From assembly GCF_016863295.1 (NCBI RefSeq), contig NZ_BOOP01000004.1, positions 62,001-126,000 on the forward strand: a stretch of 64,000 nt of DNA. The letters are read 5' to 3'. The stretch is from Planotetraspora phitsanulokensis (GTDB lineage: Bacteria; Actinomycetota; Actinomycetes; Streptosporangiales; Streptosporangiaceae). Every line of letters starts with the position of its first letter. Position 1 is the stretch's first letter. The notes beneath the pieces are model-generated. The model was given only the letters and a program-made list of their open reading frames with translations, searched no databases and was not told where the DNA came from. Made by a program: the position numbers and the translations under genes. Below are positions 4,777-26,111 of this stretch, one piece after another.

Positions 4777-5547
4777 TCAGACGCGGAAGACGGTTACGCC
4801 TGCCTCGGTGAGACGAGCCGCGGCGTCATCGGACAGGCCGTCATCGGTGATCAGGGTGTCGATCGCGTCGATCGAGCAGATCCGCGCGAAGGCCCGGCGG
4901 CCGACCTTGGACGCGTCGGCGACGACCACCACCCGGGCGGCCCTCTCGATCAGCTGGCTGTTGACGCTCGCCTCACCCTCGTGATGGGCGGTGGCCCCCG
5001 CGTCGACGTCGATCGCGTCGACCCCGAGGAAGGCGATCTCTATCGCCACCTGGTCCAGCACACCCGACGCCAGCGGGCCGATCAGCTCATAGGACTGCGG
5101 CCGGGCCACTCCCCCGGTCACCACGATCTTCACGTGCTGGCGGACGGTCAGCTCCGCCGCGATGTTCAGCGCGTTGGTGACGATCGTGAAGCCGATCTCC
5201 GGATCCGCCGCCGTGGCCAGTGCCCGCGCGACCTCGGAGGTGGTCGTGCCGCCGTTCATCCCGACCACCGTGCCCGGCTCCACGAGGGCCGCGGCGGCCT
5301 TGGCGATCCGCTGCTTCTCCCCCGCGTGCCGGGCCGTCTTGTACCGCAGGGGCAGGTCGTAGCTCACGCTCTGGGTGACCGCGCCGCCGCGCGTCCGCAT
5401 CAGCAGTTGCTGGCCCGCCAGCTCGTCGAAGTCACGCCGGATCGTCGCGGTGGACACCTCCAGCGACTGCGCGGCCTGCTCGACCGACAACCGGCCCTCC
5501 TCCGCGAGGAGCTCGAGGATGGCGTTCCACCGCTCGTACCTGCTCAC
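4777..5547 (-). CDS. DeoR/AgaR-like transcriptional regulator of sugar catabolism
   Basis: A 256-residue DeoR-family repressor. The N-terminal winged helix (LSVEQAAQSLEVSTATIRRDFDEL, about residues 19-42) is followed by a sugar-phosphate sensor domain with the typical NGGTTT motif, IVTNALNIA and a FLGVDAID stretch. It is divergent from the SIS gene at 5741 and shares with it the promoter that bears the 47-bp element also found before the kinase/aldolase operon at 15162. Known relatives (AgaR, GatR, GlpR) respond to phosphorylated sugars. Tagatose or galactosamine phosphates are the likely inducer, by inference from the target genes. Confidence 0.85.
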   Translation of the reverse strand: MSRYERWNAILELLAEEGRLSVEQAAQSLEVSTATIRRDFDELAGQQLLMRTRGGAVTQSVSYDLPLRYKTARHAGEKQRIAKAAAALVEPGTVVGMNGGTTTSEVARALATAADPEIGFTIVTNALNIAAELTVRQHVKIVVTGGVARPQSYELIGPLASGVLDQVAIEIAFLGVDAIDVDAGATAHHEGEASVNSQLIERAARVVVVADASKVGRRAFARICSIDAIDTLITDDGLSDDAAARLTEAGVTVFRV

Positions 5548-5678
5548 CGTGCCTCACCCTGCCTGCTCACGCCGCCCACACCCCACCCCGTCCCGCTGGA
5601 TCTCGACCGTTCTCCGCACCGGCTCCGGCGTGCCCACCGCGCAACAGCCTGGCACACGCTGGAGACCCACCCCCAGAT

Positions 5679-5725
5679 CTGCACAAAGCTGTTCAATAAT
5701 GCTATGAAATATGCAGAAACGAACC
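5679..5725 (+). promoter_or_regulatory. 47-bp promoter/operator element, copy 1
   Basis: This stretch aligns without gaps to 15066-15112, with 38 of 47 identical bases by my count. Shared blocks include CTGCAC, TGCTATGAAA and GCAGAAA. The complement of the 3' half reads TTCGTTTCTGC...TTTCAT, reminiscent of the TTTCRTTTY repeats of AgaR boxes. It ends 15 nt before the ATG at 5741. It is the best candidate operator for the divergent DeoR regulator. Confidence 0.7.
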
Positions 5726-5740
5726 ATACCTGGAGGCGGC

Positions 5741-6619
5741 ATGACCACCTACACCGAGGCCGAGATCGCCTCACAACCGGACTGCTGGCGCGAGGTCGCC
5801 GGCGTTCCGGCCCAGGCCCTGCCCGCCCCGGGCGAACGCGTCGCCGTCGTCGGCTGCGGCACCTCGTGGTTCGTCGCCCAGAGCTACGCGGTCCTCCGCG
5901 AGCGCGCGGGGCACGGCGAGACCGACGCCTTCGCCGCCTCCGAGGTGCCGCTCGGGCGTCCGTACGACCGCGTGGTCGCCCTCACCCGGTCGGGGACCAC
6001 CACCGAGGTCCTCGATCTCCTGAGCCGGGCGAAGGAATCCGCCATCAGGACCACCGCCATCACCGCGGACGCGGACACGCCCGTGACCGGGCTGGCGGAC
6101 GAGACGATCGTCCTCGGCTTCGCCGACGAGCGGTCCGTGGTGCAGACCCGCTTCGCCACGACCCAGCTCGCCCTTCTCCGCATGCATCTCGGCGAGGACC
6201 TCACCTCCGTCATCGCGGACGCCGAGCACGCGCTGGCCGAGCCGCTTCCCGAGCCGCTCCTCGCCGCCGAGCAGTTCTCCTTCCTCGGCACCGGCTGGAC
6301 GTACGGCATCGCACAGGAGGCGGCGCTGAAGATGCGGGAGGCGTGCCGGGCGTGGACCGAGGCCTACCTGGCCATGGAGTACCGCCACGGCCCCATCGCC
6401 ATCGCGGAGCCGGGCCGGATCACCTGGATGCTCGGGACCGCCCCCAGCGGGTTGCGCGACCAGGTCGAGGCCACCGGCGGCACACTCCTCGAATCGACCC
6501 TCGACCCCATGGCCGAGCTCGTCCGCGTTCAGCGGGTGGCCGTCGCGCGCGCCCACGCGGCCGGCCTCGATCCGGACCGGCCGCTGCACCTGACCCGGTC
6601 GGTCATCCTCCCGGCCTGA
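5741..6619 (+). CDS. SIS-domain sugar-phosphate isomerase/deaminase (AgaS-like)
   Basis: A 292-residue protein with two sugar-isomerase (SIS) domains like the isomerase half of GlmS. Visible are VVGCGTSW near residue 35, the phosphate-binding loop LTRSGTTTEV near residue 85, and a second domain with LGTGWTYGIAQEAALKMREA and EYRHGPIAI. The family includes AgaS, which turns galactosamine-6-phosphate into tagatose-6-phosphate plus ammonia. The neighbouring DeoR regulator and the co-regulated tagatose-type kinase and aldolase favour that reaction over a GlcN-6-P one. GGAGG lies 7 nt before ATG 5741. An upstream in-frame ATG at 5711 falls inside the operator and is rejected. Confidence 0.8.
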   Translation: MTTYTEAEIASQPDCWREVAGVPAQALPAPGERVAVVGCGTSWFVAQSYAVLRERAGHGETDAFAASEVPLGRPYDRVVALTRSGTTTEVLDLLSRAKESAIRTTAITADADTPVTGLADETIVLGFADERSVVQTRFATTQLALLRMHLGEDLTSVIADAEHALAEPLPEPLLAAEQFSFLGTGWTYGIAQEAALKMREACRAWTEAYLAMEYRHGPIAIAEPGRITWMLGTAPSGLRDQVEATGGTLLESTLDPMAELVRVQRVAVARAHAAGLDPDRPLHLTRSVILPA

Positions 6620-6638
6620 CCCCGCACGCGGCCGCGTC

Positions 6639-7217
6639 TCACGAGGACGCGGCCCCGTCTTCCGCGAGCAGTCGCCGTACGGCGTCGACGACGGTCCACC
6701 TGCGGCGCTCGCGGTCGGCGGAGGCGTTCTTGCCCAGCTCGGGGGTGACCGAGGACCACGCCCCGGCTGTCGCGATGACCAGCGTCAGGATCTCGGCGGG
6801 CGAGTAGCGAGTGGGCACCACGCCGTCCCGCTGTGCCCGCGCCACCTTCTCGAGCTTGTTCGTGTTGGACGCCACGATGGCCTGGAGCGGGGCGCCCTGC
6901 GGGCGCTCCAGCCGGTACCAGGTGGCCAGGCGCACGGTCGCGGGATCGTCCTCATAACGGTCGAACAACCGCCCGGCGTACCCCGGCAGGTCCTCGGCGT
7001 CGAACGGCACACGCTCGATGGTCGCCGCGACGAGGGCGGTGAAGACCGCGTCGAACAGCTGGTCCTTGTTGCCGAAGTACGCGTAGATCATCGCCTTGTT
7101 GCACCCGGCGGCCTCGGCGATGCGATCGACCCTGGCGCCGGCGATGCCGAGCGCGGCGAACTCGGCGGCCGCCGCCTCCAGTAGCCGTTTCCTGGTCAGA
7201 TCCGCGTCCCGCGCCAT
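6639..7217 (-). CDS. TetR/AcrR family transcriptional regulator
   Basis: A 192-residue TetR-family repressor with the N-terminal HTH segment GARVDRIAEAAGCNKAMIYAYFGNKDQL and a variable ligand-binding C-terminus. It is divergent from the SDR at 7330. Two identical 12-bp sites (7244 and 7296) lie in the shared promoter region, so autoregulation and control of the SDR are likely. Confidence 0.85.
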   Translation of the reverse strand: MARDADLTRKRLLEAAAAEFAALGIAGARVDRIAEAAGCNKAMIYAYFGNKDQLFDAVFTALVAATIERVPFDAEDLPGYAGRLFDRYEDDPATVRLATWYRLERPQGAPLQAIVASNTNKLEKVARAQRDGVVPTRYSPAEILTLVIATAGAWSSVTPELGKNASADRERRRWTVVDAVRRLLAEDGAASS

Positions 7218-7243
7218 GCCGTGAGCCTACCACTGAAGCAACT

Positions 7244-7307
7244 AACCAGTCAGTTGACATATCCGCCCGCCGAGTGTTTCTCTATGCATGTATCCAACCA
7301 GTCAGTT
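7244..7307. promoter_or_regulatory. Pair of 12-bp direct repeats, putative TetR operators
   Basis: AACCAGTCAGTT occurs at 7244-7255 and again at 7296-7307, 52 bp apart. Each overlaps a short dyad around ACTGACTGGTT. The pair sits between the divergent TetR and SDR genes. This is the usual arrangement for a TetR regulator with one site per promoter. Confidence 0.6.
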
Positions 7308-7329
7308 AGTTACGCAAGAGGGAACACCC

Positions 7330-8163
7330 ATGACCAGGACCTGGCTCATCACCGGCAGCTCCCGCGGCTTCGGCCGAGAGCTGGCCAAGGCGGCGCTCGA
7401 TGACGGCGACAAGGTCGTCGCGACCGCCCGCAGGCCGGAGCAGCTCGACGATCTCGTGAAGGAGTACGGCGACGCCGTACGGGCCATCGCGCTCGACGTC
7501 ACCGACGCCGCCGCGGCCCACGCGGCCGTGCGGACGGCGGTGGACGAGTTCGGGCGGCTCGACGTCGTCGTGAACAACGCCGGCTACGCCAACAGCGCCT
7601 CCATCGAGGACTTCACCGACGACGACTTCCGCGCGCAGATCGAGACGAACCTGTTCGGCGTGGTCAACGTCACCAGGGCGGCCCTGCCCGTGCTGCGCGG
7701 GCAGCGCTCGGGCCACTTCATCCAGTTCTCCTCCATCGGCGGACGCGTGGGCGGCACGCCGGGCATGGGCGCGTACCAGACCGCCAAGTGGGGGGTCGAA
7801 GGCTTCTCTGAAGTCCTCAGCAACGAGGTGAAGCCGTTCGGGGTCAAGGTCACCATCATCGAGCCGAGCGGCTTCCGCACCGACTGGGGCGGCTCGTCCA
7901 TGCGGACCCCGCCGGTGAGCCCCGACTACGACGAGACGGTCGGCGCGTTCAACCGCTACCGGGAGTCGACCGCGCACGAGTGGCCGGGCGACCCCGCCAG
8001 GGCGGCCAGGATCATCCTCGACGTCGTGCGGCTGGACGAGCCGCCGCTGCGCCTCCTGCTCGGCGCGCGCGCGGTCGAGATGGCCGCGGAGGCGTCCCGG
8101 GTACGCGCGGCGGAGGCCGAGAAGTGGGCCGACGTCAGCCGGTCCGCCGACTTCCCCTCCTGA
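7330..8163 (+). CDS. Short-chain dehydrogenase/reductase
   Basis: A 277-residue classical SDR: TGSSRGFG at the nucleotide-binding loop (about residues 8-15), NNAG near residue 80, catalytic Ser in FSSIGG and the YQTAK pair near residue 150. The arginine-rich start (ATARR) suggests NADP(H). It starts at ATG 7330 after an AGAGGGA site; the earlier in-frame ATG lies within the operator repeat. It is probably induced when the divergent TetR is released. The stop falls in the palindrome TGACCGGTCA, which also contains the stop of the convergent VWA gene. Confidence 0.85.
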   Translation: MTRTWLITGSSRGFGRELAKAALDDGDKVVATARRPEQLDDLVKEYGDAVRAIALDVTDAAAAHAAVRTAVDEFGRLDVVVNNAGYANSASIEDFTDDDFRAQIETNLFGVVNVTRAALPVLRGQRSGHFIQFSSIGGRVGGTPGMGAYQTAKWGVEGFSEVLSNEVKPFGVKVTIIEPSGFRTDWGGSSMRTPPVSPDYDETVGAFNRYRESTAHEWPGDPARAARIILDVVRLDEPPLRLLLGARAVEMAAEASRVRAAEAEKWADVSRSADFPS

Positions 8164-8167
8164 CCGG

Positions 8168-9361
8168 TCACGCGGCGGGGACGCGTACGGTCTCCGCCCA
8201 CGCGGGCGGGTCGGGAGGCCCGGAGTGGTCCGCGCCGATCAGGACGCAGATCACCCGGCACGACGGCGCCTCGGCGGGCCAGGGCGTGAGGCCGTCCGTG
8301 AGGACGATCAGCACGCTCGGCCGGTCGGGCGCCGCGAGCGCGGCCGCGATGCCGGCGCGCATGTCGGTGCCTCCTCCGCCGGACAACGTGACCTGGGCGG
8401 CGTCGGTCACCCGGGACACGGCCTGCACGTCGGCGTCGCACGCGAGCACCGTGACCCGGTTGCCCCGGATGCCGACCTCGCGCAGCACTCCGGCGACCTC
8501 CGCCATCGCCGCGGCCAGGTCGTCCTGGCCCATCGACCCGGAGGTGTCGACCACGACGGCCACGCGCGGCAGCGGGCGGCGCAGGCTCGGCAGCACGACC
8601 CCGCGCAGGGCGGGTGTGCGGCGTGACGGCCGGCGGTAGGTGTAGTCGACCGCGCCTCCGGCCCAGGCCACCGCCTCCCTGACCGCCCCCGCCAGCATCC
8701 TGCGCCAGTTCACGACCGGTTCGAGGACCTGGTCCGCCCATCGCCGCCACCCGCCTGGCAGGTCGCCGCGACCGCGCAGGTGAGCCCGCATCGCCTGCGC
8801 GGTCGTACGGCGTAGCGCGCCGGCCTCCACCGGGCCGATCCCCCCGGCGGCACCCCGCAGGTCCCAGGGGGCGCTCCTCCCATGGGCGCCGGAGCCGCAG
8901 TCGTGCACGTTGGCCTGCGGCGGTATCCGGGGCAGGTACGCCTCGAACAGCAGGCCCGGCGGAAGACCGAAGAGGCCGGGCACCAGGCGGCCCTCGGGCA
9001 GCGCCACGCCGTCGGCGACCAGGTCGTCGTTGATCTCGCAGTCCTGGGCGACGTTGACGCGCAGGCGATCGCGGTGGGCTGCGGCGGGCAGCCGGTCGGC
9101 CCGGCCGTGGTGGTCGCGCAGGAGGTGTGCCACCTCGTGGATCCAGACACCGGCGAGCTCCTCCACCGGGGTCGCGTCGACGAAGCCCGGCGACACGTAG
9201 CAGCGCCACCTCCGGTCGACGGCCATCGTCGGCACGGCCGTGCTCGGCACGACCGACAACGCGTACAGGGCGGAGGCGAGGTAGGGGCGGTCGAGCGCCG
9301 CGCGGTAGCGGGCGGCGAGCAGCTTGACCCGGTCGAGCCCTGCGACGTCGAGGTCACCCAT
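8168..9361 (-). CDS. VWA domain protein with metallopeptidase-like N-terminal domain (DUF2201-type)
   Basis: A 397-residue protein and the last gene of a five-gene overlapping operon. The N-terminal half resembles putative metallopeptidase domains, with HEVAHLLRDH (HExxH, residues 75-79). The C-terminal half is a von Willebrand A domain with the MIDAS motif DTSGSM (about residue 270) and GGGTDM. VWA proteins next to MoxR ATPases are thought to form chaperone-like or metal-insertion complexes. It starts at ATG 9361, overlapping the MoxR gene by 8 bp. Its substrate is unknown. Confidence 0.85.
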   Translation of the reverse strand: MGDLDVAGLDRVKLLAARYRAALDRPYLASALYALSVVPSTAVPTMAVDRRWRCYVSPGFVDATPVEELAGVWIHEVAHLLRDHHGRADRLPAAAHRDRLRVNVAQDCEINDDLVADGVALPEGRLVPGLFGLPPGLLFEAYLPRIPPQANVHDCGSGAHGRSAPWDLRGAAGGIGPVEAGALRRTTAQAMRAHLRGRGDLPGGWRRWADQVLEPVVNWRRMLAGAVREAVAWAGGAVDYTYRRPSRRTPALRGVVLPSLRRPLPRVAVVVDTSGSMGQDDLAAAMAEVAGVLREVGIRGNRVTVLACDADVQAVSRVTDAAQVTLSGGGGTDMRAGIAAALAAPDRPSVLIVLTDGLTPWPAEAPSCRVICVLIGADHSGPPDPPAWAETVRVPAA

Positions 9362-14810: not shown

Positions 14811-14833
14811 CGGCTCTCCTCACGAACGGGCGG

Positions 14834-14906
14834 CGAGGCCGGCCGGATTCGAACCGGCGTCCTCCCCTTTGAGAAAGGGGCGCGACGACCCCTGCGCTAC
14901 GGCCCC
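14834..14906 (-). tRNA. tRNA-like gene, apparent anticodon CTC (Glu-type), atypical
   Basis: Read on the minus strand, the 7-bp acceptor arm GGGGCCG/CGGCCTC has one G-T pair. Then come TA, a D-arm beginning GCGC, an anticodon stem CCCCT/AGGGG with loop TTCTCAA, a 5-nt variable region and a perfect T-arm GCCGG-TTCGAAT-CCGGC. Length is 73 nt without encoded CCA. Nucleotide 26 appears to be missing. Three extra bases on each side (GGC/GCC) could extend the acceptor stem to 10 bp. It could be a genuine but unusual tRNA or a tRNA-derived element. Confidence 0.5.
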
Positions 14907-14951
14907 GCCGGGCGGAAGCTTAGCGATCTGCCATGCCTTGGGAGAAAACGG

Positions 14952-15024
14952 CGAAGCCGGCCGGATTCGAACCGGCGTCCTCCCGATGAGCAGTCGGGCA
15001 CGACGACCTCTGCGCTACGGCTTC
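14952..15024 (-). tRNA. tRNA-like gene, apparent anticodon GCT (Ser-type), atypical
   Basis: A tandem partner of 14834-14906 with nearly the same D-arm and the identical T-arm. The acceptor arm is different but perfectly paired (GAAGCCG/CGGCTTC), as is the anticodon stem (CCCGA/TCGGG). Compensating changes on both sides of the stems argue for a folded RNA. The loop CTGCTCA reads anticodon GCT but has C at position 37, and a serine tRNA should have a long variable arm, which is absent. Identity is therefore uncertain. CGTTTTC follows the 3' end. Confidence 0.45.
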
Positions 15025-15065: not shown

Positions 15066-15112
15066 CTGCACAGAACTGCGCATTAGTGCTATGAAAGAAG
15101 CAGAAATGAACC
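15066..15112 (+). promoter_or_regulatory. 47-bp promoter/operator element, copy 2
   Basis: Ungapped partner of 5679-5725 (38 of 47 identical). A second CTTTCAT at 15047-15053 faces the CTATGAAAG here, giving a loose dyad across about 50 bp. It lies 21 nt upstream of the leader ORF and about 50 nt before pfkB. It predicts control of the kinase-aldolase operon by the DeoR regulator at 4777. Confidence 0.7.
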
Positions 15113-15132: not shown

Positions 15133-15165
15133 GTGCCCCCACGCCCCCGGCCGTCCGCGCCGTGA
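15133..15165 (+). CDS. Ten-codon leader ORF overlapping pfkB start
   Basis: GTG 15133 follows GGAGG with a 6-nt gap, the best ribosome site in this region. It opens a Pro/Arg-rich 10-codon frame that ends at TGA 15163-15165, overlapping the pfkB start as GTGA. pfkB itself has no good ribosome site, so translation may depend on this leader by coupling. The proline-rich content could also pause ribosomes. The role is inferred from layout only. Confidence 0.4.
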   Translation: MPPRPRPSAP

Positions 15166-16106
15166 TCCTCACCGTCACCCTCAACCTGGCCCTCGACGTG
15201 ACCTACGTGGTCGGCGATGTCGACTGGAACGGCATGAACCGCGTCAGCTCGGTCCATCGCCGAGCAGGCGGCAAAGGCGTCAACGTCGCCCGCGTGCTCA
15301 CCTCCCTCGGCCACGAGGTCGTCGCCACGGGCCTCGCCGGAGGCCGTACCGGCGAGGACGTCCTGGCCGACCTCGCCCTCGCGGGCGTCGCCGCCGACTT
15401 CACCCCCATCGCCGCCGAGTCACGCAGCACCCTCGTGGTCTCCGAAGCCGGCCCATCCGCATCCCGGCGGAACGCCTTGTTCAACGAGCCCGGCCCGGTG
15501 GTGACCGAGGACGACCTCATGCGCTTCACCCGGCACTTCGCCGGTCTCGTCCGCGGGGCGGACGCCGTCGTGATCTCAGGGAGCCTGCCGCCCGGCGCTC
15601 CCCCGGACTTCTACGCCGGGCTCGCCGCCATGGCCGCCGAACGAGGCGTGCCCGTCATCGTGGACGCCGACGGCACGCCTCTGCGCCATGCCCTGAGCGG
15701 CCGCCCAGCGATCGTCAAGCCCAACGCGGAGGAACTCGCCCGCGCCGCCGTCCTCCCCCGGACGGCGACGCCGCCCCGGTCGGCCGACGCGGCGGAGGCG
15801 TTGCGGAGAGCCGGCGCGGAGTCCGTCGTGGTCTCGCTCGGAGCACACGGCGCCCTCGCGGTCACACCCGGCGGATCCTGGCGGGCCCACATGCCGCGCG
15901 AGGTCGCCGGGAACCCCACCGGTGCGGGAGACGCCCTCGTGGCGGGGCTCGCCCTCGGCCTGGTGGAGGCCACCCCCTGGCCGGACCGGCTGCGCCGCGC
16001 CACCGCACTGGGGGCCGCCGCGGTCGCCGCCCCTCTGGCCGGCGACGTCGACCCCGACGTCTACCTGGCCCTCCACCCCGAGATCGGCATCGAGCCCGTC
16101 TCCTGA
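15162..16106 (+). CDS. 1-phosphofructokinase-family hexose kinase (tagatose-6-phosphate kinase candidate)
   Basis: A 314-residue PfkB-family kinase of the FruK/LacC type. The N-terminus MILTVTLNLALDVTY fits family starts exactly, GGKGVNVARVL is the sugar-binding motif near residue 38, and NPTGAGDALVAG near residue 250 holds the catalytic Asp. Family members phosphorylate fructose-1-P or tagatose-6-P. Co-regulation with an AgaS-like protein and the adjacent aldolase favour tagatose-6-P to tagatose-1,6-bisphosphate. The position equivalent to Pro in TLNPALD is Leu here. The next gene follows after 31 nt. Confidence 0.8.
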   Translation: MILTVTLNLALDVTYVVGDVDWNGMNRVSSVHRRAGGKGVNVARVLTSLGHEVVATGLAGGRTGEDVLADLALAGVAADFTPIAAESRSTLVVSEAGPSASRRNALFNEPGPVVTEDDLMRFTRHFAGLVRGADAVVISGSLPPGAPPDFYAGLAAMAAERGVPVIVDADGTPLRHALSGRPAIVKPNAEELARAAVLPRTATPPRSADAAEALRRAGAESVVVSLGAHGALAVTPGGSWRAHMPREVAGNPTGAGDALVAGLALGLVEATPWPDRLRRATALGAAAVAAPLAGDVDPDVYLALHPEIGIEPVS

Positions 16107-16137
16107 CCCCCCGACCACCAGAAAACGGAGTCCTCCC

Positions 16138-16971
16138 ATGACTCTCGCCCGCATCGGCGACATCGTCCGCGACGCTCCGGCGGGCGTCGGCGCCTTCAAC
16201 GTCATCCTGCTGGAGCACGCGGAGGCGATCGTCACCGGAGCGGAGGCCGCAGGCTGTCCCGTCGTGCTGCAGATCAGCGAGAACGCGATCCGCTATCACG
16301 GCGCCCTCGCCCCGGTCGCGGCGGCCTCACTGGCCGTCGCGGGCGCCGCCGCCGTACCAGTGGCAGTGCATCTCGACCACGCCACCGACCGCGCCCTGGT
16401 CGAGGAGGCCGTCGCGCTCGGGCTGGGCTCGGTCATGTTCGACGCCTCCGCGCTCGACGACGAGGCCAACGTGGCGGCCACCGCGGACGTCGCCGCCTGG
16501 TGCCACGAGCGCGGTGTCTGGGTGGAGGCCGAGCTCGGCGAAGTCGGCGGGAAGGACGGCGTGCACGCGCCGGGCGCCCGGACCAAGCCTCGCGAGGCCG
16601 CCGACTACGTCGCGCGGACAGGCGTCGACGCCCTGGCGGTCGCCGTCGGCACCTCCCACGCGATGACCACCAAGGACGCCGTGCTCGACCTCGACCTCAT
16701 CGCCGAGCTGCGTGCCGCCGTACCGGTGCCTCTCGTGCTGCACGGCTCCTCGGGCGTGCCCGACCACACCCTCCGCGCAGCCGTACGGCACGGCATGAAG
16801 AAGATCAACATCGCCACGCATCTGAACAAGGCCTTCACCGAGGCCGTCCGCGGGCACCTCGATGCCCATCCGACCGCCGTGGACGCCCGGGCGTACGTCC
16901 GGGCCGGGCGTGACGCCGTGGCCCGCGAGGTCACGCACCTGCTCGGCGTCCTCGGCCCCGTACCTGGCTGA
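16138..16971 (+). CDS. Class II fructose/tagatose-bisphosphate aldolase
   Basis: A 277-residue zinc-dependent aldolase of the FbaA/GatY/KbaY family. HLDHATD (residues 78-84) carries the catalytic Asp and a zinc-ligand His. GTSHA and HGSSG hold the further zinc and phosphate-binding residues, and KINIATHLN follows. It cleaves a ketose-1,6-bisphosphate to dihydroxyacetone phosphate and glyceraldehyde-3-phosphate. Its length (shorter than FbaA) and its partner kinase fit tagatose-bisphosphate aldolase. It starts at ATG 16138 after CGGAG and belongs to the operon that begins at 15162. Confidence 0.85.
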   Translation: MTLARIGDIVRDAPAGVGAFNVILLEHAEAIVTGAEAAGCPVVLQISENAIRYHGALAPVAAASLAVAGAAAVPVAVHLDHATDRALVEEAVALGLGSVMFDASALDDEANVAATADVAAWCHERGVWVEAELGEVGGKDGVHAPGARTKPREAADYVARTGVDALAVAVGTSHAMTTKDAVLDLDLIAELRAAVPVPLVLHGSSGVPDHTLRAAVRHGMKKINIATHLNKAFTEAVRGHLDAHPTAVDARAYVRAGRDAVAREVTHLLGVLGPVPG

Positions 16972-16986
16972 CCGTGCCCCGGGAGG

Positions 16987-18294: not shown

Positions 18295-18334
18295 GCCAGG
18301 TGTCCGCTCTGCCGTCCTATCGGCGCGGATGAAT

Positions 18335-18397
18335 GCATGATCACGAAACCGGTTTGCGTAGGCCGGGGTATGCGTGACCGAATCCGCGCATGATCAC
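18335..18397. repeat. Two GCATGATCAC motif copies at convergent gene ends
   Basis: Exact decamers at 18335-18344 and 18388-18397, 53 bp apart. That matches the 53-bp spacing of the copies at 2308 and 2361. The second contains the stop codon of the Gfo/Idh gene (complement of TCA 18394-18396). The region lies between convergent genes. Confidence 0.6.
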
Positions 18398-19650
18398 GGC
18401 GGAGGGGGTGGGAGGGTGACGACGGTGGCGGTGTGGCGAGCTTGTTCGGCCGCCCACACGACTCGGTGGGAGTCGAGGCTCGTGGCCGCGTCCGTCCAGA
18501 CGAGGGAGGGATCGCCCGCGGCCACCGCCCTGAGGAACGCGTCCACGAGTGCCCCGTCTCCCCCGCCGTGCCCGTCGGCCGCGGCGGCCCCGCTCTCGGC
18601 GCTCGTGTCGACGACCTCCTCCCTGCCGGTACGGAAGTCGGTCACCTTCACCAGGGTCCCGTCGCCCTCCAGGTACCCGTGTGTGCCGAAGATCCTGGTC
18701 CTGCGCTGCTCCTGCGGCGTGAAGGCCGTCATGGTGAAGGTGACGGTGCCGCCTCCGGCGAACTCCCAGGAGACGACCTGGTGGTCGACGACGGAGTTGT
18801 CGCAGGCGTAGACGCAACGGCCGTAGGGGCCTTCGCGCAGGGCCCGCCGCACGCCCTCCTCGGTGTGGTCGGAGGTGACGACGCTCAGCGGCCAGAACGT
18901 CCGGTCCGGGTCGTTCAGGCAGTCGAGGTAGAGCCGGGGCGCCGAGTAGGGGCAGGTCGCCTCGACCGCGCAGTCGAGGCACCGGTCGGCCGCGCCGTCC
19001 GGCCGGTTGGCCGGGGTGAAGTGTTTCAGCGACCCGAACGACGAGACACGTTCGACCCGCCGGCCGGTGACGTGGAGCAGCCAGTCGATGTCGTGGCACG
19101 ACTTCGCGAGCAACATGGGCGCGTCCTGCTCACGCCGCCAGTTGCCGCGGACGAACGAGTGGGCCTGGTGCCACCAGCCGACCGGCTCGAGGTGCTGCAC
19201 GCTCACGATCTCGCCGATCCGTCCGGCCGCGAGAAGCGAGGTGAGCACGCGGGTGTAGACGGTGTAGCGGAGAACGTGGCAGACCGTGAGGATCACTCCG
19301 GCCTCGGCCACCGCGTCAACGATGCGAAGCGCGTCGGCCTCCGAGGTGGCCATCGGCTTCTCCAGCAGGAGATGGTGGCCCGAACGGGCGAACGCCACGG
19401 CCTGGTCGGCGTGTTCGCCGTCCGGGCTGGCGATGACGGCGGCGTCCGCCGACCGCTGGGCGGCGAGGGCCGTCCAGTCGGCGTGGACGTGTTCCGGCGC
19501 GAGCCCGTGCTCGACGGCGAAGGCTTCCCGCCGCCGCGGATCGGGATCGGCGACGGCGACCACGCGGGCGCCCGCGGCCACGGCGTGCCTCGCGTAGACC
19601 GTGCCGCGCATGCCCGCTCCGACGACGACCAGTGTGACCGGTCGGCTCAT
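18394..19650 (-). CDS. Gfo/Idh/MocA-family oxidoreductase of the carbohydrate operon
   Basis: A 418-residue NAD(P)-dependent oxidoreductase. GAGMRG (residues 11-16) binds the dinucleotide and EKP (97-99) is the family catalytic Lys motif; AKSCHDIDWLL carries the active-site His. An insertion CLDCAVEATCPYSAP may bind metal. Members oxidise or epimerise sugars, and the related GH109 enzymes cleave alpha-GalNAc by an NAD-dependent mechanism. That alternative is worth considering here because the operon carries GH114 and GH4 enzymes. It follows the permease gene by 19 nt and is the last gene of the operon. Confidence 0.8.
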   Translation of the reverse strand: MSRPVTLVVVGAGMRGTVYARHAVAAGARVVAVADPDPRRREAFAVEHGLAPEHVHADWTALAAQRSADAAVIASPDGEHADQAVAFARSGHHLLLEKPMATSEADALRIVDAVAEAGVILTVCHVLRYTVYTRVLTSLLAAGRIGEIVSVQHLEPVGWWHQAHSFVRGNWRREQDAPMLLAKSCHDIDWLLHVTGRRVERVSSFGSLKHFTPANRPDGAADRCLDCAVEATCPYSAPRLYLDCLNDPDRTFWPLSVVTSDHTEEGVRRALREGPYGRCVYACDNSVVDHQVVSWEFAGGGTVTFTMTAFTPQEQRRTRIFGTHGYLEGDGTLVKVTDFRTGREEVVDTSAESGAAAADGHGGGDGALVDAFLRAVAAGDPSLVWTDAATSLDSHRVVWAAEQARHTATVVTLPPPPP

Positions 19651-19669
19651 CCTGGATCCTCTCCGCGGG

Positions 19670-20482
19670 TCACCCCTTGAGCCCGCTGAACGACATGGTG
19701 GCGATGAAGTGCCGCTGGGCCACGACGAACGCCGCGATCAGCGGGAAGGTCGCAAGCACGTTGCCCGCCATCAGCGCCGACCACTGGGTGTGCCGGGCTC
19801 CGGCGAAGGTGGTGAGACCCACCTGCAGCGTGTACGTCTCCTCGGAGTTGATGGCGATCAGCGGCCAGATCAGGTCGTTCCACGCGCCGAGGAACGTGAA
19901 GACGGCCAGGGTGGCGAGCGCGGGACGAGCGAGCGGCAGCACCACCCGGAAGAACACGCCGAGGCGGTTGCAGCCGTCGATCCTGGCGGCCTCCTCCAGT
20001 TCTCGCGGCAGGCTGAGGAAGAACTGCCGCATCAGGAAGACCCCGAAGGCCGTCGCCAGCCACGGGACGAACGCCGCGGACAGCGTGTCGATCAGGCCGA
20101 GGTTCTTGAAGACGAGGAACGTCGGGATCATCAGCACCTGGGTCGGCACCATGACGGTCGCCATGATGGCCACGAAGGCGACGCCCCTGCCGCGGAAGCG
20201 CAGCCGGGCGAAGCCGTACCCGGCGAGTGAGCACAGCACCAGATGGGAGACGACGGCGACCGCGGTGACGAGCAGCGTGTTGCCGAACCAGCGCGGGTAG
20301 CTGTCCTCGGTGAGCACCTTGAGGTACCCGCCGAAGTCGATGTGGCTGGGCCACAGGCGCGGCGGGTACGCGTTGATCTCGGCGTCCGGCATGAACGACG
20401 TGATGAGCATCCACACCAGCGGCGCCGCGAACAACAACGACAGCGGCATGAGGACCAGGTGGTAAGGCCACTGACGCCTCAT
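19670..20482 (-). CDS. Carbohydrate ABC transporter permease, MalG/UgpE type
   Basis: A 270-residue integral membrane protein with six helices. It contains the inner-membrane component motif EAARIDGCNRLGVFFRVVLPLARP, which contacts the ATPase. It forms the translocation pore with the permease at 20479. No ATPase gene is present in the operon, so a shared MsiK-type ATPase elsewhere is expected, as in many actinomycetes. It starts at ATG 20482, overlapping the upstream stop by ATGA. Confidence 0.85.
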   Translation of the reverse strand: MRRQWPYHLVLMPLSLLFAAPLVWMLITSFMPDAEINAYPPRLWPSHIDFGGYLKVLTEDSYPRWFGNTLLVTAVAVVSHLVLCSLAGYGFARLRFRGRGVAFVAIMATVMVPTQVLMIPTFLVFKNLGLIDTLSAAFVPWLATAFGVFLMRQFFLSLPRELEEAARIDGCNRLGVFFRVVLPLARPALATLAVFTFLGAWNDLIWPLIAINSEETYTLQVGLTTFAGARHTQWSALMAGNVLATFPLIAAFVVAQRHFIATMSFSGLKG

Positions 20483-21396
20483 GAGGGCGCCTCCCCTCGC
20501 CGGGCGTGCCAGAGGGCGGCGCCCGAAACGATCAGGGTGACCACGAACAGCGCGTAGGCCACGGCCGCCCCGTATCCGGCGTGGAACAACTGGAAGGCCT
20601 GCTGGTACAGGTAGAACACGATCACCGTGGTGGAGTCGAGGGGCTGACCTTTGGTGGTCGTGTACACCAGGTCGAACAGTTGCAACGCGTCGATCGTCTG
20701 CCAGATCACCAGGAAGACGGTGGCGGGCCTGAGCTGGGGCAGGGTCACCGCGCGGAAGACCCGCACCGCGCCCGCGCCGTCCACGCGGGCCGCTTCGAGC
20801 AGTTCGCGCGGGATGTCCTGCAACGCGGCCAGGTAGACCACGATGGGCAGGCCGACCGAGCCCCACAACGACACCACGACCAGGGTGAGCAACGCCTGGG
20901 AGGGGTCCTGCAGGAACCCCTGCCGGGCGACGCCCGCGCCGGCGAGCAGGTCGTTCACGATGCCGAACTGCGGATCGAGGATGAAGTTCGCGAGGATGCC
21001 CGTGGCGGCTGCCGAGACGACGTACGGCACGAACAGGCAGGTCCGGTAGAACGCGCGGAACCGGATCGGCCGGTTGAGCGCGAGCGCGATCGGCAGCCCG
21101 ATGACGAGGGACCCGGGGACGTACAGGACGGAGTACAGCAGGGTGTGCAGGGTCGCCGCCCGCAGGTCCGGGTCGTCGAGCAGGTCGCGGTAGTTCTGCA
21201 GTCCCACGAACGAGCCGGGGGCCAGCAGGTTGTCGTCCCGCAGCGAGAGGATCAGCGCCCAGACCGCCGGGAAGATCGACAAGCCGACGATGACGAGCGT
21301 CGCCGGCCCGACGAAACCCCACCCGGTCAGCTGCGGCATCAGCCGTACCCGGGGCCTGGCGTGCCGCCTGCGCAGGGTGAGCGCGTCGGCGGCCAT
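20479..21396 (-). CDS. Carbohydrate ABC transporter permease, MalF/UgpA type
   Basis: A 305-residue membrane protein with six or seven helices and the EAA motif ELLEAARVDGAGAVRVFRAVTLPQLRP. It pairs with the MalG-type permease downstream. ATG 21396 lies 1 nt after the stop of the binding-protein gene; a longer in-frame reading would overlap that gene and is rejected. Confidence 0.85.
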   Translation of the reverse strand: MAADALTLRRRHARPRVRLMPQLTGWGFVGPATLVIVGLSIFPAVWALILSLRDDNLLAPGSFVGLQNYRDLLDDPDLRAATLHTLLYSVLYVPGSLVIGLPIALALNRPIRFRAFYRTCLFVPYVVSAAATGILANFILDPQFGIVNDLLAGAGVARQGFLQDPSQALLTLVVVSLWGSVGLPIVVYLAALQDIPRELLEAARVDGAGAVRVFRAVTLPQLRPATVFLVIWQTIDALQLFDLVYTTTKGQPLDSTTVIVFYLYQQAFQLFHAGYGAAVAYALFVVTLIVSGAALWHARRGEAPS

Positions 21397-21397
21397 G

Positions 21398-22678
21398 TCA
21401 GCCCTTCGCCAGGATCTTGTCGGCCTCGGCGGCGGCGTCGGACAACGCCTGCTGTGCCGTCGCCTGGCCGAGCAGCGCCTTGTCGATCGCATCACCGACG
21501 GCCGCGGAGATGTCCGGGTACCCCTCGATCGCCGGGCGGGCCTGCACCGCGTTCTCCTGGTTGGCGAGGAAGGCGTCCGCCCCGGTGAACTGCTCCGCGA
21601 ACTTCTCGTAGGCGGGCAGCTTCGAGGTCGCCTGGCGGATCGGCAGGTTGCCCGACCCGAGCGACCAGCGGGCGTCCTGCTCGGGCTTGGTCAGCCAGGC
21701 GAGGAAGTCCTTGGCGGCCTGGGCCCGCTTGGAGCCGTTGTCGAACACCACCCAGTTGTCCGGGCCGGAGATCGTCTGGTGGTTGCCCCCGTAACCGGGG
21801 AGCGGCACGACGCCGTAGTCGACCTGGTGGTCGGCGAGGTCGCGCATCGCCCACGGGCCGGCCATCTCCATGCCGACCTTGCCGCTGTAGAAGAGCGGCA
21901 GGAACTTCTCGCCGTTCTGGTCCAGGTAGACGGACTTGTCCTCGACGGCCATGGCCCGCCACAGGTCGAGGCTCTGGGCGGCCTGCGGCGACGCGAAGGC
22001 GGCCGTCTTGCCGTCGGAGCCGAGGATCGACCCGCCCTGTTGCCAGAGCATCGGCCAGAAGCGCCAGACCGTGTCCTCGTCACCGGTGACCACGTACGAC
22101 GTGCCGAAGACGCCCTTGCCGGGGTCGGTCAGCCTCTTCGCCGCCGCGCGGAAGTCGTCCCAGGTCCAGTCCTTGGTCGGGTACGGCAGGCCGGCGGCGT
22201 CGAAGAGCTTCTTGTTGTAGATCAGGCCCAGGTTGTCGACGACGGACGGGACGCCGATGACCTTTCCGTCGACCGTGGCGGCCTCACGCGCGGCGGGCCA
22301 GAAGTCGTCCCAGCCGAACGACGGGTCCTTGACCATGGAGGACAGGTCGACGACCTTGGGCGTGGCGGCGAGGGTCGAGGACCAGGAGCCGTACATGTAC
22401 GCGACGTCCGGCGGCTCGCCGCCCGCCAGCGCGGCCTGGACCTTCTGCAGCATCTCGTCCACGTTGGTCGTGCCGACCTCGGGGTCGACCTCCACGCCCG
22501 GGTGGGTCTTGTTGTACTCGTCGGCGAGGTCCTTGAGGATCTGGCCCTCGGCCTCGGTCTGGCCGTGCCACCACACGACCTTGACCTTGCCGCCTTCATC
22601 GTCGGACTGGCCGCCGCACGCTGTCGCGAAGCCGAGCGCGGGGACGATGGCAAGGACGATGGCGAGCTTGCGGATCAT
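21398..22678 (-). CDS. Extracellular sugar-binding lipoprotein of an ABC importer
   Basis: A 426-residue solute-binding protein (family 1). A signal peptide ends in a lipobox, ATAC at about residues 18-21, so the protein is anchored outside the membrane. KVVWWHGQTEAEGQ opens the mature domain, and YNKTHPGVEV, NLGLIYNKKLF and the NWVVFDNGSK region are typical. The ligand is probably an oligosaccharide released by the GH114 enzyme, inferred from the operon. The gene overlaps the GH4 stop by ATGA. Confidence 0.85.
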   Translation of the reverse strand: MIRKLAIVLAIVPALGFATACGGQSDDEGGKVKVVWWHGQTEAEGQILKDLADEYNKTHPGVEVDPEVGTTNVDEMLQKVQAALAGGEPPDVAYMYGSWSSTLAATPKVVDLSSMVKDPSFGWDDFWPAAREAATVDGKVIGVPSVVDNLGLIYNKKLFDAAGLPYPTKDWTWDDFRAAAKRLTDPGKGVFGTSYVVTGDEDTVWRFWPMLWQQGGSILGSDGKTAAFASPQAAQSLDLWRAMAVEDKSVYLDQNGEKFLPLFYSGKVGMEMAGPWAMRDLADHQVDYGVVPLPGYGGNHQTISGPDNWVVFDNGSKRAQAAKDFLAWLTKPEQDARWSLGSGNLPIRQATSKLPAYEKFAEQFTGADAFLANQENAVQARPAIEGYPDISAAVGDAIDKALLGQATAQQALSDAAAEADKILAKG

Positions 22679-23958
22679 GGCTTCATCTCCTCTCGGAGCG
22701 ACTCGGGCAGCAGGTCGGAGTGTGCGCGCACCATCTCGTCGCACAGATCCCAGATCTGCTCCAGGGTGAGGGTCGCCGCGGTGTTCGGGTCCACCATCGC
22801 GGCGTGGCGGATGTGCTCGGGCCTGCCGTCCACGGCGGCCCGGACGGTGAGTTCGCCGACGGCGGCGAAGGAGCGGTTCAGCGCGGCGCACTGCGGCGGG
22901 AGGTCGCCGACGGCCATCGGGCGGACGCCGAGCCGGTCCACCAGGCAGGGCACCTCGACGGCGTAGCCGGAGGGCAGGTTGGAGATCAGCCCGTGGTTGG
23001 GCAGGTTGCCATACACCACGCGCGGCCGGCCGGTCACCATGGCGTGGATGATCTGCGGGGCGTACTCCATCGTGGCGTCGGGCGGCTCGAACTCCCCGGC
23101 CCGGGCACGTTCGTAGGTGGCCACGTTGTCCGCGCTGATCCGCACGTACTCGGCGACGTCGAGCCGGAACCGCTCGATCTCCCCGTCGTGACGCAGGAAC
23201 CAGGGGAGGTACTCGGAGGAGTGCTCGCTGGACTCGGTCGGGTAGTAGCCGAGCCGCCGGTACATCTCCACCCGGACGCGCCGCCGCAACCCGGGGTCCT
23301 TGTCGATGGCCGCGTCCAGGCGCGGGTAGAGGTCCTCGCCGTTCGCCGAGAACTTCAGCACCCACGACTGGTGGTTGACGCCGGCGCACAGGTAGTCGAT
23401 CTCGTCGTACGGCACCCCGACCAGGTCGGCCAGGCCGTCCATCGTCCAGTGGACCGAGTGGCACAGGCCGACCACCCTGGGCAGTTTCCGTGCCAGGTAC
23501 GTGATGTTCATGGCCATCGGGTTGGTGTAGTTGAGCAGCCACGCGTCGGGACAGACGTCGGCGATGTCGTCCGCCAGCGCGTCCAGGAAGGGGAAGGTGC
23601 GCAGCGCCCGGAAGATGCCGCCGACGCCCAGTGTGTCGCCGATCGTCTGGCGCAGGCCGTACCGCGCGGGGATCGCGAAGTCGGTCACGGTGGCGGCGTG
23701 CATGCCGATCTGGACCATGTTGATCACGAAGTCGGCTCCGGCGAGCGCCTCGCGCCGGTCGAGGTGGGTGGTGACGACCAGACCGGTACGGCTGTCGCCC
23801 ACGATCCCGCGTGCCCCGTTCTCCGCCACCGCGAGCCGTTCGGCCGAGATGTCGTGGAGGGCGATCTCACTTCCCGCGAGCTCGGGGAGGCCCGCCAGGT
23901 CGGCCAGCAGTCCCTGGGTGAACACGACGCTGCCGGCGCCGATGAAAACTATCTTCAA
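22675..23958 (-). CDS. Glycoside hydrolase family 4, alpha-galactosidase-like
   Basis: A 427-residue GH4 enzyme, a family that needs NAD and a divalent metal and works by an oxidation-elimination route. GAGSVVF (residues 7-13) binds NAD. NYTNPM (143-148), CHSV (166-169) and GVNHQ around His196 supply metal and substrate contacts. CHSV is the signature of the alpha-galactosidase branch. The cytoplasmic location and operon suggest trimming of imported alpha-linked galactose or galactosamine oligomers. TTG 23958 is the start: AAGGAG lies 7 nt before it and MKIVFIGAGS fits family N-termini. Confidence 0.85.
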   Translation of the reverse strand: MKIVFIGAGSVVFTQGLLADLAGLPELAGSEIALHDISAERLAVAENGARGIVGDSRTGLVVTTHLDRREALAGADFVINMVQIGMHAATVTDFAIPARYGLRQTIGDTLGVGGIFRALRTFPFLDALADDIADVCPDAWLLNYTNPMAMNITYLARKLPRVVGLCHSVHWTMDGLADLVGVPYDEIDYLCAGVNHQSWVLKFSANGEDLYPRLDAAIDKDPGLRRRVRVEMYRRLGYYPTESSEHSSEYLPWFLRHDGEIERFRLDVAEYVRISADNVATYERARAGEFEPPDATMEYAPQIIHAMVTGRPRVVYGNLPNHGLISNLPSGYAVEVPCLVDRLGVRPMAVGDLPPQCAALNRSFAAVGELTVRAAVDGRPEHIRHAAMVDPNTAATLTLEQIWDLCDEMVRAHSDLLPESLREEMKP

Positions 23959-23974
23959 TGGGTCGCTCCTTGCG

Positions 23975-23998
23975 GGTGGGCCCTGATGAGGGCCCACC
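23975..23998. terminator. Hairpin between GH114 and GH4 genes
   Basis: GGTGGGCCCT (23975-23984) and AGGGCCCACC (23989-23998) form a 10-bp stem with loop GATG. It lies after the GH114 stop and before the GH4 start. Without a clear promoter in the 50-bp gap, it probably acts as a partial terminator that lowers expression of the downstream operon relative to the secreted enzyme. Confidence 0.65.
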
Positions 23999-24008
23999 CC
24001 GGGGGGGT

Positions 24009-24857
24009 TCAGACGCCGCGGCAGGCCACGCGGTAGGCGTCCAGTTCGAGATGTTTCCTGAGTGAGTTGAAGTTCTGCGCGTTGGCCTTCGCGCAGAACT
24101 TGGACGTGGCGAGGGAGTACTCGACCTGCATGACGGCCTTGCCCGCGGCGACGAACTGGTCGTAGCCGTAGGAGCCGTTGTCCGCGGTCGTGCACTCCTT
24201 GTAGGAGAAGCACTCTTCGTTCAGGGCCCAGTCGAAGTACGGCAGCAGCGTGGGGATCTGCTCGATGTCGTTCTTCAGTGCCACGGACAGGCCGCGCGCG
24301 TGGGCCTCGTTGGCCAGCCAGGTGTTGTACGCCAGCTGGTCGGCGGCCGTGAGGGGGAAGCCCGTCTTGTTCGTGTAGCCGTCGACGTTGTCCGGTTCGA
24401 CGGCGTCGAATCCCTTGGCCTTGCACATGTCGAGCCGTGCCTTCATGATCGCGCCGAGCGGGCCGTCGTACTGACGGATGTCCAGCCAGCGCTCGCCGGC
24501 CCAGCCGGCCAGGTTCTTGCCCAGCACGGAGGCGGGGAACTGCGCGGCGTCCGAACGCCAGTTCTCGTAGGAACCGGCGCTTATGTAGCAGACGACCTTG
24601 CGGCCCTGCTTCGTGGCGTGCAGGTCGGCCACCAGGCCGGCCGGTGCATCAAATCCGTCGATGTCGTACATGTCGACATTCAGATACGGACTTGTGGGCA
24701 GCGACGACAGCTGCCACTGCCAGCTGGTCTGCAGGGCAGGGTGCCAGCAGCCGGGGCAGGCGACAGGGGCCGGCAGGGCGGCGCCCTGCGCGGGGCTCGC
24801 GGTGACGATCAGGCCGGCCGTGAAGACGGCGGCGAACAACGCCTTGAGATAGCGCAT
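24009..24857 (-). CDS. Secreted endo-alpha-1,4-polygalactosaminidase (GH114)
   Basis: A 282-residue secreted glycosidase of family GH114. The signal peptide covers about residues 1-30 (KALFAAVFTAGLIVTASP). The TIM-barrel shows DMYDIDGFDAP, VCYISAGSYENWRSD, RWLDIRQ and FDAVEPDNVDGY, where the acidic residues match the proposed catalytic pair. The family cuts alpha-1,4-galactosamine stretches such as those in fungal galactosaminogalactan. AGGAG lies 6 nt before ATG 24857. First gene of the minus-strand locus, divergent from the kinase at 25092. Confidence 0.85.
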   Translation of the reverse strand: MRYLKALFAAVFTAGLIVTASPAQGAALPAPVACPGCWHPALQTSWQWQLSSLPTSPYLNVDMYDIDGFDAPAGLVADLHATKQGRKVVCYISAGSYENWRSDAAQFPASVLGKNLAGWAGERWLDIRQYDGPLGAIMKARLDMCKAKGFDAVEPDNVDGYTNKTGFPLTAADQLAYNTWLANEAHARGLSVALKNDIEQIPTLLPYFDWALNEECFSYKECTTADNGSYGYDQFVAAGKAVMQVEYSLATSKFCAKANAQNFNSLRKHLELDAYRVACRGV

Positions 24858-25032
24858 GTGCACTCCTCGCATGGACTGACGTTCAGGCAAGGGGCGTCAT
24901 GCGTGCTGTTCCTCACTCTCCCTCGCCGCCCGGCCCACGATGCGGTGGGAGTGACATGACCCATAGTGATCAGCAGGACCATGTCAGCACGCCTCGTTCG
25001 GCTTCCTTCCTCCCGGCTGGCTCAAGACTTGC

Positions 25033-25074
25033 GCGTATTAGCTCGATTCGCAATGCTTTCGAGCATTAATTCGC
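25033..25074. promoter_or_regulatory. Nested inverted repeats, putative operator before PfkB kinase
   Basis: AATGCT-TTCG-AGCATT (25052-25067) is a perfect 6-bp dyad. In addition GCGTATTAGCTCGA (25033-25046) faces TCGAGCATTAATTCGC (25059-25074) as an imperfect repeat. It lies 18 nt before the kinase ATG and in the shared region with GH114. The binding regulator is unknown; the site does not resemble the 47-bp DeoR element. Confidence 0.5.
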
Positions 25075-25091
25075 ACGAAATGGGAGCCTGG

Positions 25092-26111
25092 ATGTTCGAT
25101 CTCCTGGTCGTGGGCGACGCGAACCCCGATGTGATCCTCTCCGGCGCGCCCCGGCGTCCCGCGTACGGCCAGCGAGAAGAACTCGTCGACACCGGGGTCC
25201 TCACCGTCGGCGGCTCCGGCGCGATCATGGCGTGCGGGGCGGCGCGTCTCGGTCTGCGCACGGCGTTCGTGGGCCGGGTCGGTGACGACGAGGCGGGCCG
25301 CTTCATGCTGACCTCGCTGGAGGCACGGGGGGTGGACGTGTCGGCCTGCGTCGTGGACCCCGCACTGCCGACGGCGCTGACGGTCGTCCTGGTCGACGGG
25401 GGCGGAGCCGCGCATCGCGAGGCGGGCAAGGAGCCGACCGGGGCGGGTCTGGACCGGGCCATCCTGACCGCTCCCGGCTGCCTGCCGTTCCTGTCCGGGA
25501 CGGACGTCCCCCGCACCCTGCTCGCCTCGGCCCGTCACGTGCACGCGGCGTCGTTCTTCCTCCAGCCGCGCCTGGCCGCGGACCTGCCGTCCCTCTTCTC
25601 CGCCGCCCGGTCTCACGGGGCGACCACGTCGCTCGACACCAACGACGACCCGGAGGGCAGGTGGGAGGGGCTGGCGGAGGTCCTCGCCGTGACCGACGTG
25701 CTGCTGCCCAACGAGGCCGAAGTGCTGGCGATCACCGGCGCCGGGGGCACACCGTCCGGCCCCTCGCCGCACGGCTCCCCTGCCGGCTCCCCCGTCGAGG
25801 AGGCCGCGCGTGAACTGGCCGCGCGGGGGGTGCTTCCCGTCGTCAAGCTCGGACGGGACGGCGTGCTCGCGTGGACGGACGCGGGAGCCGTACACGCCCC
25901 TGCCATGGAGGTCGACCCGGTCGACACGGTGGGGGCGGGCGACAGCCTCGACGCCGGGTTCGTCGCGGCACGACTGCGCGGGTTGCCGCTGGACGCCGCG
26001 CTGCGGATCGCCGCGGCCTGCGGCTCGCTGTCGACCCGGGCGGCGGGTGGCACCTCGGCCCAGGCGACCTGGGACGAGGCGGTGAGTGCCGCCTCCGTTC
26101 CCTCGCCGTAG
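25092..26111 (+). CDS. PfkB-family sugar kinase
   Basis: A 339-residue ribokinase-type kinase. It shows FDLLVVGDANPDVIL at the N-terminus, GGSGAIMACGAARLG (sugar-site glycines), LGRDGVLAW and DTVGAGDSLDAGF with the catalytic Asp. It is longer than many relatives because of a Gly/Ser/Pro-rich insertion around residues 220-235. As the divergent neighbour of the GH114 operon it is a candidate for phosphorylating the released galactosamine or galactose-type sugar, feeding the SIS enzyme at 5741. That link is inference. It starts at ATG 25092; longer frames would include the operator. Confidence 0.8.
   Translation: MFDLLVVGDANPDVILSGAPRRPAYGQREELVDTGVLTVGGSGAIMACGAARLGLRTAFVGRVGDDEAGRFMLTSLEARGVDVSACVVDPALPTALTVVLVDGGGAAHREAGKEPTGAGLDRAILTAPGCLPFLSGTDVPRTLLASARHVHAASFFLQPRLAADLPSLFSAARSHGATTSLDTNDDPEGRWEGLAEVLAVTDVLLPNEAEVLAITGAGGTPSGPSPHGSPAGSPVEEAARELAARGVLPVVKLGRDGVLAWTDAGAVHAPAMEVDPVDTVGAGDSLDAGFVAARLRGLPLDAALRIAAACGSLSTRAAGGTSAQATWDEAVSAASVPSP

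Follow-up and report, generated by a model that had tools for sequence, protein, structure and literature searches.

A putative utilization locus for alpha-1,4-linked galactosamine polymers in Planotetraspora phitsanulokensis

Introduction

In the 9.17 Mb genome of Planotetraspora phitsanulokensis (95 contigs), a stretch of 64,000 nucleotides (G000:C4:62001-126000, hereafter the window) contains a compact operon with a secreted GH114 glycoside hydrolase, a GH4 glycosidase and a sugar importer. Genes for an SIS-domain phosphosugar isomerase or deaminase, a LacC-like kinase and a class II aldolase are found in separate places of the same stretch of about 21 kb (positions 4777-26111). Do these separated genes serve one pathway, and for which sugar? 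Gene content, gene order, family membership, recurrent clustering in relatives and a repeated motif were recorded. They are best explained, with a probability of roughly 0.7, by a utilization system for alpha-1,4-linked galactosamine polymers. The candidate polymers are fungal (polygalactosamine and deacetylated galactosaminogalactan) or bacterial (a Pel-like polysaccharide). Galactosaminogalactan and Pel, polymers of biofilms and cell walls, are produced by fungi and by biofilm bacteria.

Every substrate in the following route, the function and regulator of the operator, and the proposed evolutionary step are inferred from the DNA. The GH114 protein, a clear member of its family, would cut the polymer outside the cell. 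A binding protein and two permeases would import the oligomers with the help of an ATPase encoded elsewhere, and the GH4 enzyme, judged by its MelA class and its context, may trim the oligomer ends to galactosamine and perhaps galactose. A PfkB-family kinase would convert galactosamine to galactosamine 6-phosphate (GalN-6-P), the SIS protein would deaminate and isomerize GalN-6-P to tagatose 6-phosphate (Tag-6-P), and the LacC-like kinase and the aldolase would take Tag-6-P to triose phosphates. A DeoR-family regulator would repress the SIS gene and the LacC-aldolase unit via one shared operator. As for its origin, a locus of the N-acetylgalactosamine (GalNAc) type, with the order DeoR-SIS-NagA-LacC-aldolase, would have come to lie next to the GH114-GH4 operon with its deacetylase left out.

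Gene content of the locus

Protein families were assigned via the model cut-offs of Pfam and NCBIfam. All genes named in an earlier note on this DNA were found between 4777 and 26111 by family models and coordinates. Coordinates and strands also agree with its description of GH114, GH4, the ATP-binding cassette (ABC) importer and a Gfo/Idh protein as one operon with a divergent PfkB gene. The operon is located on the minus strand in the order GH114 (24009..24857), GH4 (22675..23958), sugar-binding lipoprotein (21398..22678), MalF-type permease (20479..21396), MalG-type permease (19673..20482) and, as its last gene, Gfo/Idh/MocA oxidoreductase (18394..19650). The PfkB gene (25092..26111) is on the plus strand.

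The GH114 protein, a predicted endo-alpha-1,4-galactosaminidase with a leader recognized by eye, scores 285 bits on PF03537 (cut-off 27) and is the only GH114 found in the genome. It aligns to the solved galactosaminidase Ega3 (E 4e-50) and retains the residues at Asp189 (Asp in EPDN) and Glu247 (Glu in NEEC), as numbered for Ega3 in PMC12054363. Both catalytic residues are conserved in 18 of 18 aligned rows. The GH4 protein, a proposed exo-alpha-galactosaminidase, matches PF02056 and PF11975 and passes the alpha-galactosidase model NF011657 (561.8 against a cut-off of 486). The CHSV signature reported in the earlier note is at residues 166-169 and recurs in 106/115 aligned rows; we take this motif to place the enzyme in the MelA-type class. 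The binding protein (PF01547 and PF13416) has a lipobox by eye, and both permeases belong to PF00528 (73 bits for the MalG type, cut-off 26.4). Import by a shared ATPase had been proposed; a query of the MsiK type found no match in the window and 11 at E <= 1e-60 in other parts of the genome, which are candidate energizers. The PfkB protein (PF00294), a proposed galactosamine 6-kinase, carries, from residue 107, the stretch AHREAGKEPTGAGL, which is almost unchanged across 72 aligned rows, the window row included.

The gene of the AgaR-like DeoR-family regulator (4777..5547, minus strand; PF00455 and PF08220 above cut-off) is divergent from the SIS gene (5741..6619, plus strand; PF01380), whose product is proposed to convert GalN-6-P to Tag-6-P. 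The regions of Glu200 and His216 in the SIS protein are conserved across 108 aligned rows. A separate plus-strand unit is formed by the LacC/1-PFK-type hexose-phosphate kinase (15162..16106), a proposed Tag-6-P kinase that meets the broader model TIGR03168 (286 against a cut-off of 216), and the class II ketose-bisphosphate aldolase (16138..16971), a proposed tagatose 1,6-bisphosphate aldolase that meets PF01116 with 269 bits. Among the proteins scanned between 803 and 31646 of the window, none was a ROK protein, a deacetylase or an ABC ATPase.

Clustering in related genomes

Two samples were compared: the best 80 of 576 actinomycete loci obtained with the window GH4 as query (the named loci), and 297 genomes of the family to which the window belongs. 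Most compared loci are 3-21 kb long and some are ended by contig edges, with genes past the ends missed; the clustering counts in both samples are uncorrected for shared descent. The named loci contain matches to the substrate-binding protein (71), MalF (71), MalG (73), PfkB (52), DeoR (52), aldolase (37), GH114 (33; tblastn, at least 28% identity), SIS (31) and LacC (19). Three GH114 proteins from related loci all pass the Pfam model. Gfo/Idh relatives of at least 50% identity are present in 3/80; the solved structures listed for the window protein include Gfo/Idh oxidoreductases, and a GH109-like role may be considered.

In Paractinoplanes toevensis (L036), the genes for GH4, SIS, binding protein, MalF and MalG are consecutive on one strand; the DeoR gene is divergent, and those for PfkB, LacC and aldolase are close by. 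Actinomadura madurae (L031) has a consecutive series of binding protein, MalF, MalG, SIS, LacC and aldolase. Because they cluster with GH4, importer and PfkB in relatives, the separated genes of the window are read as one pathway. In the family sample, GH4 (E <= 1e-90) is present in 76/297 genomes, GH114 in 137/297 and SIS in 158/297. GH4 lies within 10 kb of GH114 in 41/112 copies (31 genomes), where about 0.3 pairs are expected; this count is based on 150 of the GH114 copies of the sample, counts paired GH4 genes twice and is likewise uncorrected for descent.

These data bear on the alternative that the operon serves ordinary alpha-galactosides, with GH4 as a MelA-type alpha-galactosidase and with GH114 and the amino-sugar genes as mere neighbors. 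The score of GH4 on the alpha-galactosidase model agrees with it, as does the fact that the SIS clade elsewhere mostly stands with NagA. It is nevertheless unlikely, given that GH4 occurs with GH114 and with SIS and aldolase far above chance, and that several families of actinomycetes have SIS at most 12 kb from GH4, in L036 directly after it on the same strand.

A motif shared by two promoters

A 46-base motif is common to the DNA directly before SIS (5680..5725, plus strand) and before LacC (15067..15112, plus strand). With up to three mismatches allowed, the whole 9.17 Mb genome contains its 26-base core just twice, in these two promoters. The core read backwards as a control gave no genomic site, and shuffles of a 30-base form gave none in the window. 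Both sites are present in all five species of the genus. Since both units carry the motif, SIS and LacC-aldolase are tied in control in this genus, with the motif as the putative operator; the DeoR protein is its probable binder because the DeoR gene adjoins it. The link of these two units to the GH114 operon is given by the clustering in relatives and by their conserved proximity within the genus.

A different element, the palindrome AATGCTTTCGAGCATT, is located between GH114 and PfkB (25046..25075; strand not applicable) and may be a separate operator. It is flanked by ATTCGCA direct repeats and largely conserved in the genus, and no second genomic site was found at up to three mismatches.

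NagA and two arrangements around the SIS gene

For a comparison of neighborhoods, 72 SIS copies of the family were hand-picked from listed rows, a non-random set from outside the window's genus, and were called linked to GH4 or NagA within 12 kb. By this definition 22 are linked to GH4, 38 to NagA, none to both and 12 to neither (Fisher p 3e-10 for the exclusion, uncorrected for descent). PfkB stands beside 17/22 of the GH4-linked copies as against 0/38 of the NagA-linked ones. In the named loci, NagA is near one of 31 GH4-linked SIS copies (L109). The NagA-type locus has the order DeoR, SIS, NagA, LacC, aldolase and is often positioned between glpD and guaB; the one NagA scanned, from L121, passes TIGR00221. 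A weaker form of the motif (3-5 mismatches) precedes SIS in 16/38 NagA-linked copies outside the genus and in 0/12 of the copies linked to neither gene.

The SIS proteins of the window's genus fall inside a clade of 35 rows, of which 26 are NagA-linked and four GH4-linked. The NagA gene of the window genome (L192, G000:C26:104001-122000, at 8908) sits between glpD and guaB, in a locus with no DeoR, SIS, LacC or aldolase matches and no motif core at up to three mismatches. NagA adjoins glpD in all five species of the genus, and no SIS or LacC match was found around it in 4.1-kb stretches of the four other species. Most simply, the genes for DeoR, SIS, LacC and aldolase would have been relocated next to the GH114-GH4 operon, with the deacetylase gene left in place. 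As GH4-linked versions almost never carry NagA, this suggests that a GalNAc pathway was re-used for free galactosamine. A related rule is outlined in PMC5583593: GalNAc transport is told from galactosamine (GalN) transport by whether or not the deacetylase AgaA accompanies AgaS; that rule concerned the phosphotransferase systems (PTS) of gut bacteria, whereas the present system is of the ABC/GH4 type with a different SIS subfamily.

In a second alternative, the system would use GalNAc oligomers or a polymer with part of its residues acetylated, and the NagA encoded outside the cluster would deacetylate in trans. Galactosaminogalactan contains GalNAc too. NagA is kept in 5/5 species of the genus, and Pel holds both GalNAc and GalN according to the portion of PMC12054363 consulted. 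This explanation is quite unlikely in view of the position of NagA outside the cluster, the lack of a motif core near NagA at up to three mismatches and the 0/22 GH4-linked family SIS copies with NagA nearby, though one such case exists in the named loci.

Sugar configuration and comparison with csn

Because GH4 passes the alpha-galactosidase model and mycobacterial versions of the locus carry GatZ/KbaZ, the sugar is probably galacto-configured. GatZ/KbaZ is the non-catalytic subunit of tagatose-bisphosphate aldolase. A glucosamine route enters glycolysis at fructose 6-phosphate, and a dedicated kinase and aldolase are not needed. GatZ/KbaZ was matched in 10/80 named loci, nine mycobacterial and one of Cellulomonas, and the one protein scanned passes TIGR02810 (598.5 against 568.8). 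The nine mycobacterial loci (L064, L075, L079, L080, L083, L092, L098, L100 and L106) each have an ABC ATPase match and no LacC match. In seven of the nine, an AgaS-type SIS (464.6 of 529 bits for the one scanned) and a BadF-type kinase replace the SIS and PfkB of the window type; L064 and L100 combine GatZ with window-type SIS, PfkB and aldolase.

The nearest known arrangement is csnREFGHK of Streptomyces, which, as outlined in PMC6097792 and PMC5635096, shares with the window an ABC importer, a GH4 enzyme and a sugar kinase in one operon together with a secreted endo-glycosaminidase. The CsnR box is absent from the window and from 161 of 162 compared loci at up to one mismatch, and also from 20 loci around GH4 copies taken as possible csn operons. 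Among 20 longer CsnR-box loci, one (L265, a csn-type locus of the family) has a GH4 match. Elsewhere in the window genome there is a csn-type locus, L270, that does have a CsnR box. These csn-type loci differ from the window by a ROK repressor (leading gene in L265) with CsnR box, a GH4 only 28% identical to that of the window (L265, L270), a BadF-type kinase rather than PfkB (L265), and no SIS, LacC or aldolase match; the L265 GH4 scores 168 on the alpha-galactosidase model, below the cut-off of 486. An identity of the window operon with the known csn operon was rejected on the missing CsnR box and ROK gene, the separate csn-type locus and the 28% GH4 identity. That the operon is a csn system for chitosan (glucosamine) oligosaccharides, with SIS as a glucosamine 6-phosphate (GlcN-6-P) deaminase, is very unlikely on the same grounds, despite the similar gene set of csnREFGHK and an SIS protein closest by sequence to the GlmS and GlcN-6-P deaminase models.

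CsnR boxes were found in 156/200 family genomes and at five places in the window genome, with none in the backwards control. A chitosan regulon is likely present in the family.

Points against a galactosamine route

Several results weigh against a galactosamine route. The affinity of the SIS protein to GlmS and GlcN-6-P deaminase is one, and the nearest solved structures are also GlmS-type and GlcN-6-P deaminase entries. An AgaS-like SIS protein had been claimed, but only 30.7 of the 529.2 bits required by TIGR02815 were reached, and AgaS identity was dropped as a defining point. Identity with NagS of Streptomyces was likewise rejected, by the description of NagS alone: MurQ-related, found in Streptomycetaceae only and encoded beside dmdR1, as summarized in PMC12680351. 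The AgaR-like, LacC-like and class II aldolase assignments stand at the level of broader families and fail at the equivalog level, with the DeoR protein at 200.5 of 260 bits on NF040755 and the kinase at 186 of 409.6 on TIGR01231. The aldolase reaches 221 of 383 on the GatY model NF009374 and 159 of 542 on KbaY, and stays narrowly below the broader cbbA model TIGR00167 (211.4 of 215.6).

Others are found at the level of loci. A search for the shared motif gave no site before GH114 or PfkB and, with as many as five mismatches allowed, none in the 22 GH4-linked loci of the family outside the genus. With correction for descent on the SIS tree, the exclusion between GH4 and NagA keeps its direction and is non-significant (median p 0.25), and the association of GH4 with PfkB is borderline (0.0625). 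The genome retains NagA, and the organism may thus use GalNAc. Co-occurrence of GH114 with the SIS and aldolase genes had been named as a check; the claim survives it, but of the 22 family SIS copies linked to GH4 only 6 have GH114 nearby and 16 do not. GH114 is also missing in one of the five species of the genus (G077).

Between PfkB and GH4 in G077 (L115), judged by eye, a short remnant of the GH114 3' end seems to be left, as after a deletion.

The single galactosamine route drawn in the earlier note thus keeps its outline, on the clustering in relatives, the motif shared by two units, the MelA class of GH4 and the mycobacterial GatZ/KbaZ; the AgaS identity, the ATPase assignment and the preference for a fungal over a bacterial, Pel-like source of the polymer were not borne out.

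Relation to known systems

In the Aga/Kba pathway of E. coli, substrates enter via PTS, Tag-6-P is converted to tagatose bisphosphate and on to triose phosphates, and the regulator is of the DeoR family. The proposed conversion of GalN-6-P to Tag-6-P is a further likeness, as put forward in PMC3668189. The window differs in encoding a hydrolase for the polymer, and an ABC importer and a PfkB kinase instead of PTS; its SIS protein is outside the AgaS model, and the cluster has no deacetylase. The window GH114 belongs to the same family as Ega3, FsGH114 and the enzyme of Pseudomonas sp. 881, with the catalytic Asp and Glu of Ega3 aligned, and differs from the characterized enzymes by its actinomycete origin; the bacterial GH114 enzymes in the study outlined in PMC12054363 resisted soluble production. 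With MelA-type GH4 alpha-galactosidases the window GH4 shares the NF011657 match and CHSV; it is set apart by its recurrence beside amino-sugar catabolic genes and GH114.

No description of this locus was recognized in the open-licence literature of PubMed Central, judged mostly from titles and the openings of abstracts. As far as found, each part is of a known family, and the joining of csn-like uptake to an Aga/Kba-like route for galactosamine polymers in actinomycetes would be a new combination. In a bolder version, to which we would give even odds, actinomycetes have a system dedicated to the use of cationic galactosamine polymers, a counterpart of csn for galacto-configured sugars. GH4 would then be a new exo-alpha-galactosaminidase, PfkB would represent a new subfamily of galactosamine 6-kinases with AHREAGKEPTGAGL as its mark, and SIS would be a third type of GalN-6-P deaminase, neither AgaS nor AgaI. 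Such systems would have arisen repeatedly by joining a GalNAc module, minus the deacetylase, to a GH4/ABC/GH114 module.

If this is confirmed, two or three of the enzyme activities would to our knowledge be new. Few enzymes that cut galactosaminogalactan or Pel have been characterized so far, according to the part of PMC12054363 consulted. The conserved locus points to specific proteins that may act as exo-enzyme, as galactosamine kinase and as GalN-6-P deaminase. It makes the consumers of galactosamine polymers a testable question, supplies a bioinformatic signature with which more may be found, and illustrates how a catabolic module may have shed its deacetylation step on joining a new import system.

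Neighboring genes and further observations

Genes for tRNA-Glu (14832..14906) and tRNA-Ser (14950..15024), both on the minus strand and outside the pathway, are located directly upstream of LacC-aldolase (14832-15024) and might mark an insertion site. Other scanned genes between and around the pathway units encode TetR, SDR, VWA, ankyrin, LRR, NUDIX, PadR, sigma-70 and other proteins. A third GH4 cluster of the genome (L271, G000:C4:381001-399000) has PfkB, DeoR and ABC importer matches 22-34% identical to those of the window. An Amidohydro_2 protein recurs near GH4 in 10/80 named loci, for example at L104:11352-12404.

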